Below, piece after piece: positions 3,335 through 58,045 of a stretch of 58,207 nucleotides of DNA. The stretch's first letter is position 1. Every line of letters starts with the position of its first letter. The stretch is taken from assembly GCA_017467805.1 (NCBI GenBank), contig JAFUKJ010000078.1, forward strand, positions 1 to 58,207, given 5' to 3'. The notes beneath the pieces are model-generated. The model was not told the DNA's origin. It worked only from the letters and a program-made list of their open reading frames with translations, and made no database searches. Made by a program: the position numbers and the translations under genes. This DNA is from Lachnospiraceae bacterium (GTDB lineage: Bacteria > Bacillota > Clostridia > Lachnospirales > Lachnospiraceae).

Positions 3335-3756
3335 AAATACGGATATTTCCAAGCATATGCCTCATTTCCGCCGTATTCGCCCGTCCCTGTCAATACAAAA
3401 TACGGATATTTTCAACCATATGCCCCATTTCCGCCGTATTTTATTTTGTCCTTCAATGCAAAATACGGATATTTTCGAGCATATGTCTCATTTCCTCCGT
3501 ATTTTATTTTGTCCTTCAATGCAAAATACGGATATTTTCGACCTTATACCTCATTTCCGCCGTATTCTATTCTGTCCGCCAATGCAAAATACGGATATTT
3601 TCAACCATATACCGCATTTCCGCCGTATTCGCCCATCTTCACCAATGCAAAATACGGATATTTTCGACCTTATGCCCCATTTCCGCCGTATTCGCCCATC
3701 TTCACCAATGCAAAATACGGATATTTTCGACCTTATGCCTTATTTCCTCCGTATTT
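3335..3756. repeat. Tandem hairpin array A: seven units, exact 63-bp period
   Basis: Seven copies whose TACGG cores start at 3338, 3401, 3464, 3527, 3590, 3653 and 3716, exactly 63 bp apart. Each unit is a hairpin of about 42 bp (left arm AATACGG, right arm CCGTATT, conserved interior ATATTTTC...CC.CATTTCCG) plus a spacer of about 20 bp. The spacers fall into two types, TTATTTTGTCCTTCAATGCA-like and CGCCCATCTTCACCAATGCA-like, so whole units were duplicated. The same element occurs singly at 5657 and as a five-unit array at 20839. The array lies between two minus-strand genes and would be transcribed with them. Confidence 0.95.
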
Positions 3757-3846
3757 CTTTCATCACTCTGACATTTTATCATAAGTAAGACAAAAAACCT
3801 CTCTCTTCGCATGCATTAATCGGAACTTATCGTTGCCCAAATATAA

Positions 3847-4149
3847 TCATGCTGTACTTTTTGAAAACTTTATAAATTCATATGGCAGTCCCATGTCTTC
3901 AGAATATTTACAGATTTCTATCTTTTCATCATCACTCATTTCATTATAGAAAGGACGTTCTGATACTTTCCAGTATGTTTTAACTTCATCTATTTTCAGC
4001 ACATCACCCCATGGGGCAGTATATAATTCCCCAACTTTATATTTGCCAATTTCTTTATATACCCTCGTGGTATAGCAATATCCCAGCTTATTTAAATAAT
4101 TTTGGATTGATTCATATTCATGTTCTGGGAATGATATTTTATCAAACAT
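3847..4149 (-). CDS. Uncharacterised 100-residue protein, possibly ASCH-like
   Basis: Small soluble protein with an AACGGAGG-type ribosome site 8 bases before ATG 4149. The pattern of a GKYKVGELYTAPWGDVLKID segment followed by KTYWKVSERPFYNEM resembles the small beta-barrel ASCH/PUA-like proteins, in which a G-x-x-x-Y-x-x-x-W-G strand is followed by a helix; this is a fold guess from residue pattern only. The gene lies directly before array A in the direction of transcription. Confidence 0.65.
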   Translation of the reverse strand: MFDKISFPEHEYESIQNYLNKLGYCYTTRVYKEIGKYKVGELYTAPWGDVLKIDEVKTYWKVSERPFYNEMSDDEKIEICKYSEDMGLPYEFIKFSKSTA

Positions 4150-4192
4150 ACAATAAACCTCCGTTCAATTGCCATCTTTTGTACCTTTTTAT

Positions 4193-4283
4193 TCACCATA
4201 TGTACACGAGTAGCACTCGAATGGCCCCGATAAAAACGCCCAATAATACGCCCATCGTTTGCTTTTTTATTATCTTTTTTCAC
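4193..4283 (-). other. Possible frameshifted small membrane-protein ORF
   Basis: A GTG at 4283 has a GAGG site 8 bases upstream and opens a frame starting VKKDNKKAN. In the next frame, ATG 4255 to TGA 4193 encodes MGVLLGVFIGAIRVLLVYIW, a clear membrane helix. Removing one A from the A6 run between them joins the two into a coherent 29-residue protein with a basic start and one helix. As it stands the frame is broken, so this is a decayed gene, a sequence error or chance. Confidence 0.3.
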
Positions 4284-4314
4284 TTAGATTTCCTCACATT
4301 AACGTATTTAAAAA

Positions 4315-4959
4315 TCAAATCAAGAACCCTAACGCATCCCACACGGAATGTAATATTGCCGACGTCCAAATAGAACGATTCTTTCGAAATATCATACCAA
4401 ACAGTACCCCTAATATAAATACATACACACTTCCATAAACAATATCGCCCATTGTTCTCTCTAACTGAAACCACCTTGGATAATGTATAAATACAAACAT
4501 CGTAGCAGATATTATATTTGCATACTTCTCCTTTACAATCATACTCCAAGCATTAAAAAACCAGCCTCGAAAAACACTTTCCTCAAAAATACCTACTCCA
4601 ACAACCGTCAACAAATAATCCAGCCAATTCATCTCAAAAGAAAACTGAAACCCAACAACTGCCCAACAGATGAAATAGTAGATTAGAATAGTTGGTATTG
4701 CAATTAACAAAGTTTTTCCATGAGGTTTTTTCGTAAGAATTTCTTTCAAATTCCAATTATGTTTCTTCCCAAAGCATTGAATCAATAAAAATGCAAAACC
4801 ACTCCACCACAATCCATAGATTACAAAATTTATACATGCTTCCAGATAAGGATTCAAATACGATAAATCAATATATGTTTCCCGCAAATACCATCCTGTC
4901 GTGAACACTATGTAGCTTACGATAATCACCAAAAGTAAACTTTTCTTTTCTGATTTCAT
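4315..4959 (-). CDS. CPBP-family intramembrane metalloprotease
   Basis: 214-residue polytopic membrane protein of the CPBP (CAAX protease and bacteriocin-processing/Abi) family. The three catalytic motifs are present in order: FEESVFRGWFFN (EExxxR), FVFIHYPRW (FxxxH) and SAILHSVWDAL (HxxxD/N). These form the glutamate/histidine metal site within the membrane. Hydrophobic segments run from residue 8 to the C terminus. Such proteins process prenylated or peptide substrates or give bacteriocin self-protection; which applies here is unknown. It belongs to the AT-rich accessory block with VanZ upstream. Confidence 0.88.
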   Translation of the reverse strand: MKSEKKSLLLVIIVSYIVFTTGWYLRETYIDLSYLNPYLEACINFVIYGLWWSGFAFLLIQCFGKKHNWNLKEILTKKPHGKTLLIAIPTILIYYFICWAVVGFQFSFEMNWLDYLLTVVGVGIFEESVFRGWFFNAWSMIVKEKYANIISATMFVFIHYPRWFQLERTMGDIVYGSVYVFILGVLFGMIFRKNRSIWTSAILHSVWDALGFLI

Positions 4960-5021
4960 ATACCCTCATCTCTTTCTCAGCTTCAAGTTTATCAATCTAT
5001 TTTCCACATACAACTGCCTCA

Positions 5022-5612
5022 TCACACAGGTTCAGAAAATGTTTCGAATTTTCCTATCAATGTTTTACAACATCTCTTTAATAAACTATATACCATCACA
5101 CCTAATAATACACCCATAGTGTTCAACATCAAATCGTCTATATCAGTTACTCTTTTCAAAAACATCTGGCTTACTTCAATAAATAGCGAAGTACAAAATC
5201 CTATAACAAGTGTTCTTTTACAAGATACCTTCCATAGTAATGGAATAACCAGACCAAACGGCATAAATAAAATAATATTGCCTAAAATGTTAATCAAAAA
5301 GTAAGTTACATGTCCATTCACAAAGACTTCGTTATAAGTTTCAACAAACACTCTAAATGGTATTAAGTTTGTTTCGTGAATACCATTTTGAGCTATAGCA
5401 AAACCATTCTCACCAATCTCAATTTTCGGAATAATTGTTTGAGAAGCTAAACCTACTACAAAAACAGCAAAAGCAAACATTACTATTTCACGATACCAAT
5501 TTACTTTTATCTTTTTCACTTTTACAAAGATAGTCCTTATTATTAGATATGCAGGAATTGCTAGCATCATATATGGCATCATTTTTATTACATATCTTAC
5601 TATCGCACTCAT
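5022..5612 (-). CDS. VanZ-like membrane protein
   Basis: 196-residue membrane protein with about five hydrophobic segments. The VanZ signature is the NILGNIILFMPFGLVIPLLW segment, followed by CTSLFIEVSQMFLKRVTDIDDLMLNTMGVLLG (core SLFIEVSQ...DIDDLMLN..G). VanZ-family proteins are associated with low-level teicoplanin resistance or envelope functions, but most homologues have no assigned role. There is no vanA-type cluster nearby, so resistance should not be inferred. A solo hairpin repeat lies upstream at 5657-5698. Confidence 0.85.
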   Translation of the reverse strand: MSAIVRYVIKMMPYMMLAIPAYLIIRTIFVKVKKIKVNWYREIVMFAFAVFVVGLASQTIIPKIEIGENGFAIAQNGIHETNLIPFRVFVETYNEVFVNGHVTYFLINILGNIILFMPFGLVIPLLWKVSCKRTLVIGFCTSLFIEVSQMFLKRVTDIDDLMLNTMGVLLGVMVYSLLKRCCKTLIGKFETFSEPV

Positions 5613-5656
5613 TTCTTTTTATCCTTTTTCAAATCCAAATTCCCCTACCAATCTAG

Positions 5657-5698
5657 GATACGGATATTTTCGACCTTATCTCTCATTTCCGCCGTATT
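5657..5698. repeat. Solo copy of the TACGG hairpin element
   Basis: One unit with left arm GATACGG (5657-5663), right arm CCGTATT (5692-5698) and interior ATATTTTCGACCTTAT plus CATTTCCG, nearly identical to units 4, 6 and 7 of array A. It lacks flanking tandem copies. It lies between the MBL hydrolase gene and the VanZ gene, both on the minus strand. Confidence 0.9.
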
Positions 5699-5788: not shown

Positions 5789-5815
5789 ACAATCCGTGTT
5801 ATAAACACGGATTGT
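5789..5815 (-). terminator. Hairpin overlapping the 3' end of the MBL gene
   Basis: A perfect 12-bp stem, ACAATCCGTGTT (5789-5800) with AACACGGATTGT (5804-5815), and a three-base loop. The TAA stop codon of the MBL gene lies at the loop/left-arm junction, so the last codons are part of the hairpin. There is no clean U-run, so it could act in mRNA 3'-end stability as much as in termination. Confidence 0.55.
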
Positions 5816-6431
5816 ACTGTTCCTCATATGCTACTGTCGTCTTCTCGCCATGACCTGAGTAAAGCTTCGTATCTCCAGGTAAGGTAAGAATCTTCTCACG
5901 AATTGACCTTGCAAGCTGTGACATCGAGCCAGAATAGAAGTCCGTTCTGCCTACAGAGCAATTAAATATCGTATCGCCGCAGAAAAGACATCCGTCAGCC
6001 TCTGCATAATAGCAGCAGCCTCCCTTGGTATGTCCTGGCGTATGAATCACCTTAAAGTGAATCCCAGCCATATCAAACTCCTCACCGTCCTGCAAATATA
6101 CATCCGCATCAAAGCCATAAGGCTCTCCAAACCATCCTGAAAGATTCTTCGCGGCATCCTGCAAAATGTCTGCCTCCTCAGCATGGGCATAAATCTTTGC
6201 TCCGCTCAGCTCCTGAAGCTTCTTTGCTCCGCCTGTATGGTCACCATGACCATGTGTCAACAAAATACCTGCAACACGCTCAAAGCCAAGACTCTTCACA
6301 TCATCATAAACTATTACACCTGCATCGCCTGGGTCAATGACTACAATCTCATCTACACCCTCACGATACACATAGTAACAGTTCGTATCACAAGCACTCA
6401 ACACACGTCTCTTTATCTTAATATCACTCAT
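5799..6431 (-). CDS. Metallo-beta-lactamase-fold hydrolase, glyoxalase II-like
   Basis: 210-residue MBL-fold hydrolase. The metal motif HGHGDH gives His60, His62, Asp64 and His65; the HTPGHTKGGCC segment supplies the next histidine, FCGDTIF the bridging aspartate and YSGHGEKTT the last histidine. This set matches the hydroxyacylglutathione hydrolase-like group common in Firmicutes, which may act on thioesters such as S-lactoyl-thiols; the substrate is inferred. The start ATG overlaps the rel stop by one base (TAATG), so it is translationally coupled to rel in the apt-rel-MBL operon. Confidence 0.88.
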   Translation of the reverse strand: MSDIKIKRRVLSACDTNCYYVYREGVDEIVVIDPGDAGVIVYDDVKSLGFERVAGILLTHGHGDHTGGAKKLQELSGAKIYAHAEEADILQDAAKNLSGWFGEPYGFDADVYLQDGEEFDMAGIHFKVIHTPGHTKGGCCYYAEADGCLFCGDTIFNCSVGRTDFYSGSMSQLARSIREKILTLPGDTKLYSGHGEKTTVAYEEQYNPCL

Positions 6432-19982: not shown

Positions 19983-20777
19983 TTATACCAAGAACTCCTT
20001 TATCAAATCATCCACTGCTTTCATATTTAATGGGTATGTGCTTGTCTCATAGGTAAGTAACAGCTTTTTCCCTGGAAATATATTATTTCTTTGATAGTCT
20101 CCTATCTTTCTAATCGTTTTATTACAGTACTCTATGTCATCCATTCTGCCAAAGTGTTCCCAATAATATTCTTTTCTGGTTCTTCTATTCAAGAGAAGGA
20201 AATCAGGATATACTGTTCCATAACCCCGCAGCTGCAACGGATATTCATATCTGTAGGGAATCTTCATCATATAAAATTTATCCGCTAATATCTTCTCTGA
20301 CTTTGAACGCACTCTTTCTCCTCGCTCCGTATATATTTCAGGTGCATTTTTATCAAATTCTTTTCCTACATAGATTACACCTTCCCACTGTGCAACATAT
20401 TGCTCATCAGGTAACACATATGGCTGTACCAGTCTTTGCCTTTCTGCCGAAAGTTGTTCGTATATATTAGATATATCATACTTTTCCATCTGCCCAACAA
20501 ACCTTTGCATCCTTTTCTTCTGTTCCTCTAACACCTTCAGCACCTGTATATCATATTCCTTTTGCGCAAGCTGATATGCCAGTGCTTGGTTTTCTTTATT
20601 GAGGTATTTTCCACTGCGTTCGTTTTTATCAGTTCTTACATAATACTGAGACCATTCTTTCGTTTTTGAGATTCTTAACATTCCCTGTGGTGCTTGTTTT
20701 ACTGACCTTTCAAGCTTTTCAATCATGGCGTTTACATTATGCAATTCATTCGATAAATAATCTTTTATTTCTTTCAT
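19983..20777 (-). CDS. PD-(D/E)XK nuclease-like protein with N-terminal coiled coil
   Basis: 264 residues. An N-terminal charged helical half (about 1-120, coiled-coil-like) precedes a domain with a PD-(D/E)XK-like pattern: RSKSEKILAD (Glu at about 161), TVYPDFLLL (Asp at about 192) and EYYWEHFG (Glu at about 207). The E...PD...xEHxG order resembles the nuclease modules of some helicases and restriction systems; the usual lysine is replaced by His. The start ATG 20777 has AGAAAGGA 7 bases upstream. It precedes the MNT-HEPN gene and has array B in its upstream region. A nucleic-acid-cleaving or defence role is inferred only. Confidence 0.65.
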   Translation of the reverse strand: MKEIKDYLSNELHNVNAMIEKLERSVKQAPQGMLRISKTKEWSQYYVRTDKNERSGKYLNKENQALAYQLAQKEYDIQVLKVLEEQKKRMQRFVGQMEKYDISNIYEQLSAERQRLVQPYVLPDEQYVAQWEGVIYVGKEFDKNAPEIYTERGERVRSKSEKILADKFYMMKIPYRYEYPLQLRGYGTVYPDFLLLNRRTRKEYYWEHFGRMDDIEYCNKTIRKIGDYQRNNIFPGKKLLLTYETSTYPLNMKAVDDLIKEFLV

Positions 20778-20838
20778 TCTTATTTCCTTTCTCTTTTTCA
20801 ACCTTTAATTACAACTATCTTTCTTCTACAATTAGCTT

Positions 20839-21132
20839 ACTACGGATAATTTCGACTATTGTCTCCATTTCCGCCGTAGTTCGCTCTACTGTGAACTGTC
20901 CACTACGGATATTTTTAGCCATTACTCCTATTTCCGCCGTAGTTCACTCTACTGTGAACCTTTCACTACGGATATTTTTAGCCATTACTCCTATTTCCGC
21001 CGTAGTTCGACCTACTGCAAGCCGTTCACTACGGATATTTTCAACCGTTATCTCCATTTCCGCCGTAGTTCACGCTACTGCAAACCGTTCACTACGGATA
21101 TTTTTAGCCATTATCTCTATTTCCGCCGTAGT
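20839..21132. repeat. Tandem hairpin array B: five units, exact 63-bp period
   Basis: Five copies whose TACGG cores start at 20841, 20904, 20967, 21030 and 21093, exactly 63 bp apart. The stem is ACTACGG/CCGTAGT instead of AATACGG/CCGTATT in array A, and the interior ATATTTTTAGCC...TATTTCCG is closely similar. Spacers differ entirely from array A; several contain a second small hairpin (GTTCAC TCTACT GTGAAC). The array lies between groEL and the PD-(D/E)XK gene, both minus strand, in a gene-free gap of 596 bases. Confidence 0.95.
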
Positions 21133-21316
21133 TTACCTTTCAAGGCTCTACATTAAACAGAAAATGTTGATAATGTCTTCCTCTTCACTACTGCATTTTT
21201 CGTTCTCAATCTCACTGGAAACACATTTGACATGTTAATTTGATTACAGGCATCACTTAGACAGTGCCTGTCCTAGAATCACTAGATTATTTATAGAAAT
21301 TAGATAATATATTCTT

Positions 21317-21348
21317 CTTAAAATGGCTGCCGCCGAAGCGACAGCCAT
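21317..21348 (-). terminator. groESL terminator
   Basis: Minus-strand hairpin ATGGCTGTCGC TTCG GCGGCAGCCAT followed by TTTTAAG, 26 bases after the groEL stop. An 11-bp stem with a TTCG loop makes it a strong intrinsic terminator. Confidence 0.85.
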
Positions 21349-21373
21349 CTACCTATCTCATATGAAATGTAAC

Positions 21374-23297
<1,924 letters not shown>

Positions 23298-46791: not shown

Positions 46792-47922
46792 CTATTTAGA
46801 AAACAAATTCTTAAGGTTCTCTTCATTGAGCTTAGAACCAATCACGCAAATCTTGCCTGTCACCTCAGGTGCGCCCTGTCTTACATTGCTCTCACCAGGT
46901 ACATAGTCAAAGTTAATCCATGTGCCATCTCCTGCGGGAAGCATACCCTTTGCACGAAGTACAAAGCCGTACTTGCTCTCGTTCTCAAGCTCTTCTAATA
47001 TATCTTCAATTGCTTCCTTACTATATGCAACAGGAGTCTCTAAGCCCCAGCTTGTAAATACATCATCTGCGTGGTGATGTCCATGCTCATGATGTCCATG
47101 ACATCCACAGCTGCATTCCTCACCATGCTCATGATGGTGATGCTCGTACTCATGTTCATGATGATGCTCATGGTCGTGGTCATGATGACAGCACTCATGG
47201 TCATGCTCATGCTCGTGATGATGCTCATGGTCATGACATCCGCATGTACACTCCTCACCATGCTCATGATGATGGTGATGGTCATGATGATGCTCCACCT
47301 CTGCCATAAGCTCAGCTTCTAAGTCCTTTGCATTCTCGATTGTCTCTAATATCTTCTTACCGTCAAGCTCATCCCAAGGTGTTGTGATTACAGTAGCCTT
47401 GTTATTATGCTCTCTGATAATCTCAAGTGCTGTATGAAGCTTTGCCTCGCTAATATCTGCAGTTCTACTAAGGATAATAGTTCCTGCATGCTCAATCTGA
47501 TTCAAGAAGAACTCTCCAAAGTTCTTCGCATACATCTTACACTTATTAGCATCTACCACTACAACTGCACTATTTAAACAAACCTCAACGTCAGAATTCA
47601 CATCCTGTACCGCCTTCATAACGTCTGATAACTTACCTACACCTGAAGGCTCGATAAGAATTCTCTCAGGATGATACTGCTCTAATACCTCTGCCAAAGA
47701 TGTTCCAAAGTCACCTACTAAGGAACAGCAGATACAGCCTGAATTCATCTCCTTAATCTCGATACCTGCTTCCTTCAAAAAGCCGCCATCAATACCAATC
47801 TCACCAAATTCATTCTCAATCAATACAACCTTGGATGCATCCAAAGCTTCTGTTAAAAGCTTCTTAATCAGAGTTGTCTTACCAGCTCCTAAAAAGCCTG
47901 AAAAAATATCTATCTTTGTCAT
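46792..47922 (-). CDS. CobW/COG0523-family GTPase with duplicated His/Cys-rich segment
   Basis: 376 residues. G1 loop FSGFLGAGKTTLIKKLL, canonical metal motif GCICCS (about 62-67), SRTAD near the G4 position and a C-terminal CobW_C domain. Between the domains (about 212-293) lies an extreme His/Glu/Asp/Cys stretch containing two copies of the block EHGEEC(T/S)CGCH, separated by His-rich linkers. COG0523 GTPases deliver metal, often zinc, to client proteins or under shortage; the stretch would store or sense several ions. AGGAGG precedes the ATG; a 13-bp inverted repeat lies directly upstream. Confidence 0.93.
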   Translation of the reverse strand: MTKIDIFSGFLGAGKTTLIKKLLTEALDASKVVLIENEFGEIGIDGGFLKEAGIEIKEMNSGCICCSLVGDFGTSLAEVLEQYHPERILIEPSGVGKLSDVMKAVQDVNSDVEVCLNSAVVVVDANKCKMYAKNFGEFFLNQIEHAGTIILSRTADISEAKLHTALEIIREHNNKATVITTPWDELDGKKILETIENAKDLEAELMAEVEHHHDHHHHHEHGEECTCGCHDHEHHHEHEHDHECCHHDHDHEHHHEHEYEHHHHEHGEECSCGCHGHHEHGHHHADDVFTSWGLETPVAYSKEAIEDILEELENESKYGFVLRAKGMLPAGDGTWINFDYVPGESNVRQGAPEVTGKICVIGSKLNEENLKNLFSK

Positions 47923-57317: not shown

Positions 57318-57692
57318 TTCCTCATCCTCTCATAACGCAGAGTTCTCTCTCCATTGTACCACTTATTTTCTCAAATTTACAGACTTTTTGTGTGTTGTTT
57401 TTTGTTTTATTTGTCAATTCTTTCCATTTTTATACAAATTCAAGTTTGTCGAGCTGTTCCCGCTTCACTCGCCTGCTACACGACCAAACTATATTTTGTC
57501 TCAAAAGTTAGAGTTCCGAGCATAAGTGGTACTAGATGTTTTTATTTAAATGTTCTAAGACGTACGCAACCGAGGCATATTCGTGTTCAGCTGTATACGG
57601 CGATGCCATACATGAGGAAGTAGCCCGCAAGGGCGGATTCCGAATGTAGCATGGTGTCGTCTATCACTATTATTTAGAGAATTATGTATTTT
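57318..57692. other. Gene-free region upstream of GH2
   Basis: No convincing gene. Near 57353 is a possible -10 for the GH2 operon. From about 57440 to 57660 the base composition shifts to a more GC-rich mixture (for example GAGCTGTTCCCGCTTCACTC and GTAGCCCGCAAGGGCGGATT, with the palindrome GCCCGCAAGGGC). This has the look of an interspersed genomic element or a decayed segment, but one copy only is seen in the window. Confidence 0.45.
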
Positions 57693-57913
57693 GGTGTACC
57701 ACAGCGATTTTTGCTCTCCTGTACACCTTTTTTGCTGTAATACAAGCATATCTGGTGTACCACAGCAGTTTTATGCTCTCCTGTATACCTTTTTTGCTGT
57801 AATACAAGCATATCTGGTGCACCACAGCAGTTTTACGCTCTCCTGTACACCCTTTTTGATGAAATACAAGAATATCTGGTGTACTACAGCATGTTTTTGT
57901 TCTGCTGTACACC
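57693..57913. repeat. Tandem hairpin array C: four units, 61-62-bp period
   Basis: Units start at 57693, 57754, 57816 and 57878. Each is a hairpin of about 35 bp (left arm GGTGTAC, right arm GTACACC, with the asymmetric CCA/CTA bulge then CAGC) and a spacer of about 26 bp (TTTTTTGCTGTAATACAAGC followed by ATATCT). The last unit has no copy of the spacer after it. The architecture, hairpin plus fixed spacer in about 62 bp, mirrors arrays A and B, with unrelated sequence. Confidence 0.93.
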
Positions 57914-58045
57914 ATTTTAGCCGATTAAATAGTGGTACAACAAAGGTCAAAGTACTTATAAACAGACCCAACTATCTATGCGTACTGCACAAACCTTGTT
58001 AGCGCATGCGCCTGAGTAGTCAGACATTCCAAAATGTGACATATG

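Follow-up and report, generated by a model that had tools for sequence, protein, structure and literature searches.

The window, a 58,207-nucleotide stretch of the genome of a Lachnospiraceae bacterium, carries arrays of inverted-repeat units that we judge, by a narrow balance of probability, to be BIME-like, helically phased candidate protein-binding sites in double-stranded DNA at operon boundaries. The sequence of the units turns over fast while their geometry stays, units being homogenised within an array.

Repeat arrays in the window and its genome

The elements of the ACGGA-type family found in the window, with one pair of half-sites given as an example, are as follows.

20841..21130, plus strand: array B, five 38-bp inverted-repeat units (20841-20878, 20904-20941, 20967-21004, 21030-21067 and 21093-21130) at a period of exactly 63 bp
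20839..20846, plus strand: left half-site of the first array B unit, ACTACGGA, with its mirror at 20873-20880
20873..20880, minus strand: right half-site of the same unit, reading ACTACGGC on the minus strand
3338..3753, plus strand: array A, seven 38-bp units at a period of 63 bp
5659..5696, plus strand: a single unit of the family of arrays A and B

Allowing up to three mismatches, we found the 38-mer pattern 13 times in the window and not once in 100 dinucleotide shuffles. The arms read ACTACGG/CCGTAGT in array B and AATACGG/CCGTATT in array A, the base before TACGG being A..T in 7/7 array A units and C..G in 5/5 array B units, and by eye the spacers of the two arrays are unrelated. The description in the sequence-only reading, of a second array sharing the 63-bp period with unlike spacers and a matched A-T to C-G difference on the arms, is thus accurate for every unit of both arrays. 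The single unit lies between a VanZ-like gene (5022-5612) and a metallo-beta-lactamase-fold gene (5799-6431), both on the minus strand.

In the genome of the window (G000; a draft assembly of 3.0 Mb in 121 contigs), the same pattern at up to three mismatches gave 37 matches, against none for a reversed control; with pattern variants we count 42 units in 11 places. The period is 63 bp in six of the arrays, 62 bp in C58 and 53 bp in C38 and C111, and the two remaining places hold single units. The contig 38 array has the same C..G edge as array B, the contig 111 array has C opposite C before TACGG, and in C42a G stands opposite T, a wobble at best. Unit interiors vary, and spacers are similar inside an array.

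Several further features were observed in the window. Array A and the single unit at 5659 are separated by a 100-aa ORF and genes for a CAAX-protease and VanZ (window 3338-5696). A 349-bp segment with the 100-aa ORF is duplicated at 89% identity (window 3814-4162 and L034 3609-3957, beside arrays A and C42b, respectively) and has no Pfam match above the cut-off. Elsewhere, an ORF on the minus strand (46792-47922) starts with a P-loop and contains an extended stretch rich in His/Asp/Glu/Cys, the latter encoded by DNA repeats at 47134-47298; we presume a resemblance to CobW-kind metal-handling GTPases.

Distribution among genomes

A scan with an exact pattern over 84,980 species, one genome each, returned 30 matching stretches. 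Twenty-nine came from four named MAGs, namely Lachnospiraceae Horse_feces272 (G434), Candidatus Pseudolachnospira avium (G435; Clostridia incertae sedis in the NCBI taxonomy), Lachnospiraceae RUI574 (G436) and Candidatus Treponema equifaecale (G437; Treponema by MAG name). The remaining one, from CANDAG (G438), was a lone 41-bp match. In all, relatives of the arrays were found in six genomes besides that of the window, the carriers being G000, G010, G261, G434, G435, G436 and G437. Among these G010 is a sister species of G000, with a groEL identity of 95-96% over the two pieces compared.

Within the family a TACGGAG pair occurred in 15/397 genomes, and more than one pair only in G000 and G261. 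Among the congeners the G000-type pattern matched in 7/39, in six of these once, with 2-3 mismatches. A looser ACGGA pattern gave 25 hits in G000 and 59 in G010, with none in the control for either, and 0-4 in each of the other 37 congeners, for a total of 45 against 41 in the control. Three of 196 Treponema relatives had one hit each, against two control hits; this comparison carries little weight, because the pattern used is unable to detect arrays of 84 bp and gave a score of 0 even for G437.

Such patchiness is what the main rival explanation leads one to expect, a mobile palindromic repeat of the REP or MITE kind, the half-sites of which would bind a transposase or recombinase whose oligomer sets the geometry, and which would spread without benefit to the host. 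The flanking sequence that arrays A and C99 have in common, 50 bp to one side and 83 bp to the other, speaks for it as well, as do the shared spacer sequence of the G434 arrays and the occurrence of units in a MAG named Treponema. Nevertheless, plasmids searched with array A and phages searched with array B gave no match, and two viral stretches had one match each with no second unit; on these results carriage by viruses, plasmids or phages was rejected. Taken with the transposase searches and the orthologous loci described below, this leaves a mobile palindrome an unlikely origin for the arrays.

Spacing follows the helical repeat of DNA

Within the range of 45-95 bp, centre-to-centre distances between units fall at 51.5-53.5, 61-64, 73-75 or 84 bp. 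Their best zero-phase period, computed from 20 genome-level values, is 10.49 bp, which none of 20000 uniform draws equalled; spacing by whole helical turns, as in phased operator arrays, is therefore present. Start-to-start distances are 51-53, 61-63, 72-75 and 84 bp, and three more of 114-125 bp skip one unit. As the period is inherited within an array, independent values are few and come from the separate genomes and, in G436 and G261, from arrays that are irregular. In G436, where units differ within arrays and spacings are varied, the 12 distances were again unmatched in 20000 uniform draws, and in G261, where spacers are irregular, successive distances are 62, 63, 62, 53 and 52, 62, 63, 62 bp.

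The same geometry emerges when half-sites are counted without defining arrays. The outer length of inward half-site pairs is 36-38 bp in 210/219 cases, and outward gaps are 15-16, 25-27, 37-38 or 47 bp in 173/181. Two results count against phased protein sites. Eight of the 181 outward gaps lie off the ladder (9, 9, 13, 13, 61, 78, 92 and 100 bp), and a looser unit definition adds centre distances of 59, 60, 65 and 70 bp, which arise from odd-length units; under that definition phase coherence is weaker (0.69 over 24 values), the maximum still lying at 10.4-10.5 bp.

The earlier suggestion that spacing itself matters is hence borne out more strongly than it was made, the spacing being quantised in helical turns. 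The step of the ladder is one turn of the B-DNA helix, which points to a protein bound to double-stranded DNA. Helical phasing is unnecessary for RNA hairpins and is needed by a protein that sits on one face of the DNA, and so the DNA-protein reading is favoured. The arrays would then act at the DNA level. Each unit of 36-38 bp contains a pair of inverted ACGGA-type half-sites whose outer distance is constant and which enclose A/T tracts. Successive units lie whole helical turns apart (5, 6, 7 or 8), and this would place their bound proteins on one DNA face. We infer a dimeric or paired protein on each unit, with neighbours in contact. On the model of the BIME-2 arrays of E. coli, the likeliest role would be to hold a nucleoid or topology protein, gyrase-like or IHF-like, or else to insulate adjacent operons. 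Protein binding, cooperative contact and function are what this model would add to the observed geometry, quantised spacing, location and turnover.

Two traits of the arrays would equally suit neutral tandem repeats, produced by slippage from founder units and serving no function, with the differences between arrays A and B as founder effects: on inspection the outer units are more diverged than the inner ones, as in satellites, and each array in G000 has a private spacer. Against this, seven genomes share the inward length and the spacing ladder, the ACGG core is almost invariant and one orthologous locus differs by a single turn, which makes neutral repeats very improbable.

Sequence turnover at orthologous loci

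Arrays stand at the same places in G000 and G010: on the 3' side of groEL, at the contig-38 locus, upstream of araA and on the 3' side of the beta-lactamase-fold gene. At these orthologous places the unit sequence has changed between the two species. In G010 the groEL array has GACGG..CCGTC arms at a period of 63 bp, and the 264-aa ORF beside it is kept (77% over 666 bases). At the contig-38 locus, where flanks can be aligned on both sides, the spacing is 53 bp in G000 and 63 bp in G010. Upstream of araA both species have arrays, with opposite polarity, in a comparison made from one flank only. Beside the beta-lactamase-fold gene the single unit at 5659 of G000 corresponds to six units in G010. 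Both the difference of 53 versus 63 bp at one orthologous locus and the presence of orthologous arrays with changed units speak for phased protein sites, in addition to the 10.49-bp ladder, and the persistence of arrays at orthologous loci during sequence turnover speaks against a mobile repeat.

At the beta-lactamase-fold locus, no counterpart was found in a 3.3-kb stretch of G010 for the G000 segment that separates array A from the single unit and carries the 100-aa ORF and the CAAX-protease and VanZ genes, as if the arrays were sites of gene gain or loss.

Genomic location and flanking genes

The surroundings of array B comprise the following features.

21374..23020, minus strand: groEL (Cpn60), 3' end facing array B
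21322..21349, minus strand: strong terminator-like hairpin beyond the stop codon of groEL, its 3' edge carrying a short run of T
19983..20777, minus strand: 264-aa ORF, start 64 bp from array B, no Pfam match above the cut-off

Array B lies beyond the hairpin at 21322-21349, for which folding of 63 bases gave -22.8 kcal/mol. A consensus terminator scan of 20700-21450 found none and missed this hairpin, as did the tail rule of the hairpin script. That script was applied to 26 chosen stop-to-array gaps behind 3'-facing genes, in search of hairpins that precede the array, fold at less than -15 kcal/mol and end in a T-rich tail. By our reading 10/26 gaps have such a hairpin, in C48 and C58 the nearest unit is itself a hairpin, and 14/26 show neither; groEL is counted among these 14 by the script, yet has its hairpin on folding. 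In C48 and C58 the array starts 22-24 nt past the stop codon and the nearest unit folds as a terminator, as if hairpins arose where a unit is transcribed.

By simple ORF calls on 57 rows, 26 arrays lie between tandem genes, 3 between convergent and 7 between divergent genes, and 21 at the ends of stretches. Operon boundaries of every kind carry arrays, some of them placed directly behind the terminator of the upstream gene. For phased protein sites, the terminators that precede some arrays count in favour, and the 14/26 gaps with neither kind of hairpin and the 7/57 rows between divergent genes count against. Placement 30-60 bp upstream of start codons was rejected, as it does not hold outside the window.

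Pfam matches among the flanking genes include groEL, GNAT, VanZ, GH35, araA, leuS, prfA and pullulanase; in G434 the neighbours include phosphoglycerate mutase, argS, typA/BipA and an MgsA-type ATPase. The operator of a single regulon was rejected on the ground that these genes have no common function, and unrelated flanking genes are a further point for phased protein sites. A palindrome, GAACNNNNGTTC, which we take to be a LexA-type box, stands 38 bp outside an array in two genomes (L035 4336-4347 and L224 2338-2349).

The polarity of the arrays was counted for gaps below 500 bp with a clear skew. In G434 (9/9 cases), G000 (7/8), G010 (4/4), G437 (2/2) and G261 (1/1) the T-rich strand lies opposite the 3'-facing gene, whereas in G435 it is the strand of the gene itself in 6/6 cases. 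G436 is mixed, with 4 same and 3 opposite, one row being a spurious cluster. At third codon positions T exceeds A on the gene strand in 6/6 genomes measured; base composition was accordingly rejected as the cause of the polarity, as this bias is uniform and leaves the reversal in G435 unexplained. The reversal in G435, like the difference between G000 and G010 at araA, is not what a polar function predicts, and it counts against phased protein sites. A polarity fixed relative to the gene within most genomes and differing between them is what directional insertion of a mobile repeat would give.

Covariation and folding of the arms

The matched change between arrays A and B had been taken as the mark of selection for a folded form, which would mean a structured RNA or an extruded DNA cruciform with paired arms. 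For covariation, arrays and not units were used as rows: from 70 clusters 13 were dropped as spurious, leaving 57, and three more were dropped to give 54 arrays. With shuffles kept within genomes, the edge positions -1 and 1 together gave 92/108 matches against 85.6 expected (p=0.014), from 41/54 against 37.0 at position -1 (p=0.069) and 51/54 against 48.6 at position 1 (p=0.073). Positions 7-8 gave 84/108 against 86.6, and positions 9-12 fell far below the shuffles, at 64/216 against 102.3. When G-U pairs were counted and orientation kept, the edges gave 98/108 against 93.0 on the T-rich strand (p=0.018), 98/108 against 91.7 on the opposite strand (p=0.0045) and, in six genomes, 87/94 against 80.8 on the gene strand (p=0.0055); by arbitrary strand the p values were 0.001 and 0.20. 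Shuffles across all genomes had made position -1 stand out strongly (41/57 against 14.5) because each genome has its own edge base, and a strong covariation of the edge base was given up once shuffles stayed within genomes.

Among 18 representative arrays drawn from the two sister species, six cells are changed on both sides, all at -1 and 1. Their covariation score exceeded all 500 shuffles, which mix the two species, and a slide of -3 scored higher. Pair types are T-A, G-C and A-T at position 1 and A-T, C-G and G-T at position -1. Three of the four ACGG pairs are invariant in these representatives and the fourth departs in one row; as they hardly vary, they yield almost no covariation evidence. 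In most L224 units, 3/5 L221 units and the C42a and C111 consensus the edges are non-Watson-Crick, with some G-T on one strand. The interior is unlike a stem, in that T-rich tracts on both sides tend toward the same strand.

Folding was compared with interior-shuffled controls, for up to 15 units in each of six carriers. Mean z values, as read and reversed, were -0.6/-0.8 in G000, -1.1/-0.8 in G261, -1.7/-2.1 in G434, -0.6/-0.9 in G435, -0.9/-0.5 in G436 and -0.3/+0.2 in G437. The interior adds little folding energy except in G434.

The arm edges are coupled somewhat, and a symmetric half-site explains this coupling as well as pairing does. Of the earlier claim of a compensated change, then, some edge coupling stands, and as a sign of folding the change is weak. 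The contrast of arrays A and B amounts to one event, because the units of one array share a founder (the contig 38 array has the same C..G); the core is nearly invariant, and positions 9-12 are below shuffles. Unpaired arms and variable periods at other loci, named in the sequence-only reading as grounds against it, do occur (C opposite C in contig 111; arrays of 53 and 62 bp), with the edge coupling on the other side. An RNA or cruciform could draw on the symmetric arms, the several pair types at 1 and -1, the edge statistics (p=0.014, or 0.0055 for the gene strand when G-U pairs count) and the z of about -2 in G434. Against it are the helical quantisation that RNA does not need, the near-invariance of the ACGG pairs, the deficit of matches at positions 9-12, the non-Watson-Crick edges and the position of some arrays past a terminator-like hairpin. 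No Rfam match at gathering scores was found in the whole window. In cruciforms, loops of 24-28 nt on stems of 5-7 bp are unfavourable, which further counts against that form. We consider a folded RNA or cruciform improbable and rank it third, after the mobile palindrome. Phased protein sites are favoured by the deficit at 9-12 and by how little the interior contributes to folding outside G434, and have to accommodate the edge coupling (p=0.014, or 0.0045-0.018 with G-U), the score above all 500 shuffles and the better folding of G434 units relative to interior shuffles.

Comparison with known repeat systems

A literature search for earlier descriptions of such arrays found nothing on point beyond work on REPs and BIMEs, and the accessible part of PMC12306157 contains none of six terms looked for. 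According to the part of PMC2817692 available to us, BIMEs consist of regularly spaced REPs in alternating orientation, BIME-2 elements bind gyrase and the inter-REP DNA of BIME-1 binds IHF; one of the titles it cites locates IHF-bound RIBs at the 3' end of transcription units. The present arrays are likewise extragenic palindromes with regular spacing, and their units of 36-38 bp, between ORFs by simple calls, fall within the 20-40 bp of an intergenic REP or BIME unit. They differ in having short ACGGA half-sites 36-38 bp apart and a spacing quantised at about 10.5 bp across genomes.

The Y1 transposase domain of the RAYT family (PF01797) was searched for in the seven draft genomes; it had no match in G000 or G435 and was matched in the other five, weakly and partially in G437. 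A link to RAYT, and identity with ordinary REPs, was rejected with two carriers lacking a match, and the same result weighs against a mobile repeat. REP families tagged with GTAG or CGTC are described, in the accessible part of PMC3733652, as palindromic repeats in dimers and in tandem groups with spacers, most of 20-100 bp. The arrays share the palindromic repeats and the spacers in tandem groups; however, array A ends in CGTATT and GTAG occurs only in C-edged arrays. A constant GTAG or CGTC end tag is absent, the edge base differing by genome and array.

Phased operator, iteron and plasmid partition arrays hold repeats on one helix face that are read by an oligomerising protein. The arrays resemble them in the placement of repeats on one face and differ in being chromosomal and scattered over many unrelated loci; a search among neighbours gave no rep or par gene. 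CRISPR arrays have repeats of 36-38 bp with inverted ends and spacers of 25-26 bp, dimensions that recur here, but in CRISPR the repeat is constant and the spacers are unrelated. Here spacers are alike within an array, unit interiors vary and periods differ by helical turns, and identity with CRISPR was rejected on the first two of these grounds.

Further half-site families and implications

A second family is present in the window at 57692-57918, as tandem GGTGTAC..GTACACC palindromes in 35-36-bp units at a period of 61-62 bp. This array lies inside a dispersed repeat that runs from about 57573 to the contig end; additional copies are present in G010 and, chiefly at the ends of contigs, in G000. 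A third family, with TGGACC..GGTCCA units of 36 bp at 52 bp, was seen in G010 (L144 4078-4273) beside a GGTGTAC array.

The half-site families thus comprise ACGGA at 53-84 bp, GGTGTAC at about 62 bp and TGGACC at 52 bp. Their shared geometry without shared sequence is the ground for a broader and rather doubtful proposal, that there is a class of chromosomal arrays set by geometry and not by sequence, with inverted pairs of 35-38 bp on a 10.5-bp ladder. The half-sites would differ from one sister species to the other and, within a genome, from family to family, and a fast-evolving putative reader protein would chase them. Centromere proteins chase satellites in a parallel manner.

With phased protein sites as the preferred reading, a repeat with conserved spacing becomes a quantitative and testable rule, namely that the sites lie on the same helix face. 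The arrays suggest that gut Clostridia have a protein with an organising or insulating role in the chromosome. Two sister species with the same loci, changed units and one period a turn longer constitute a natural experiment for finding that protein, and the same contrast lets one ask how DNA geometry persists when sequence does not.
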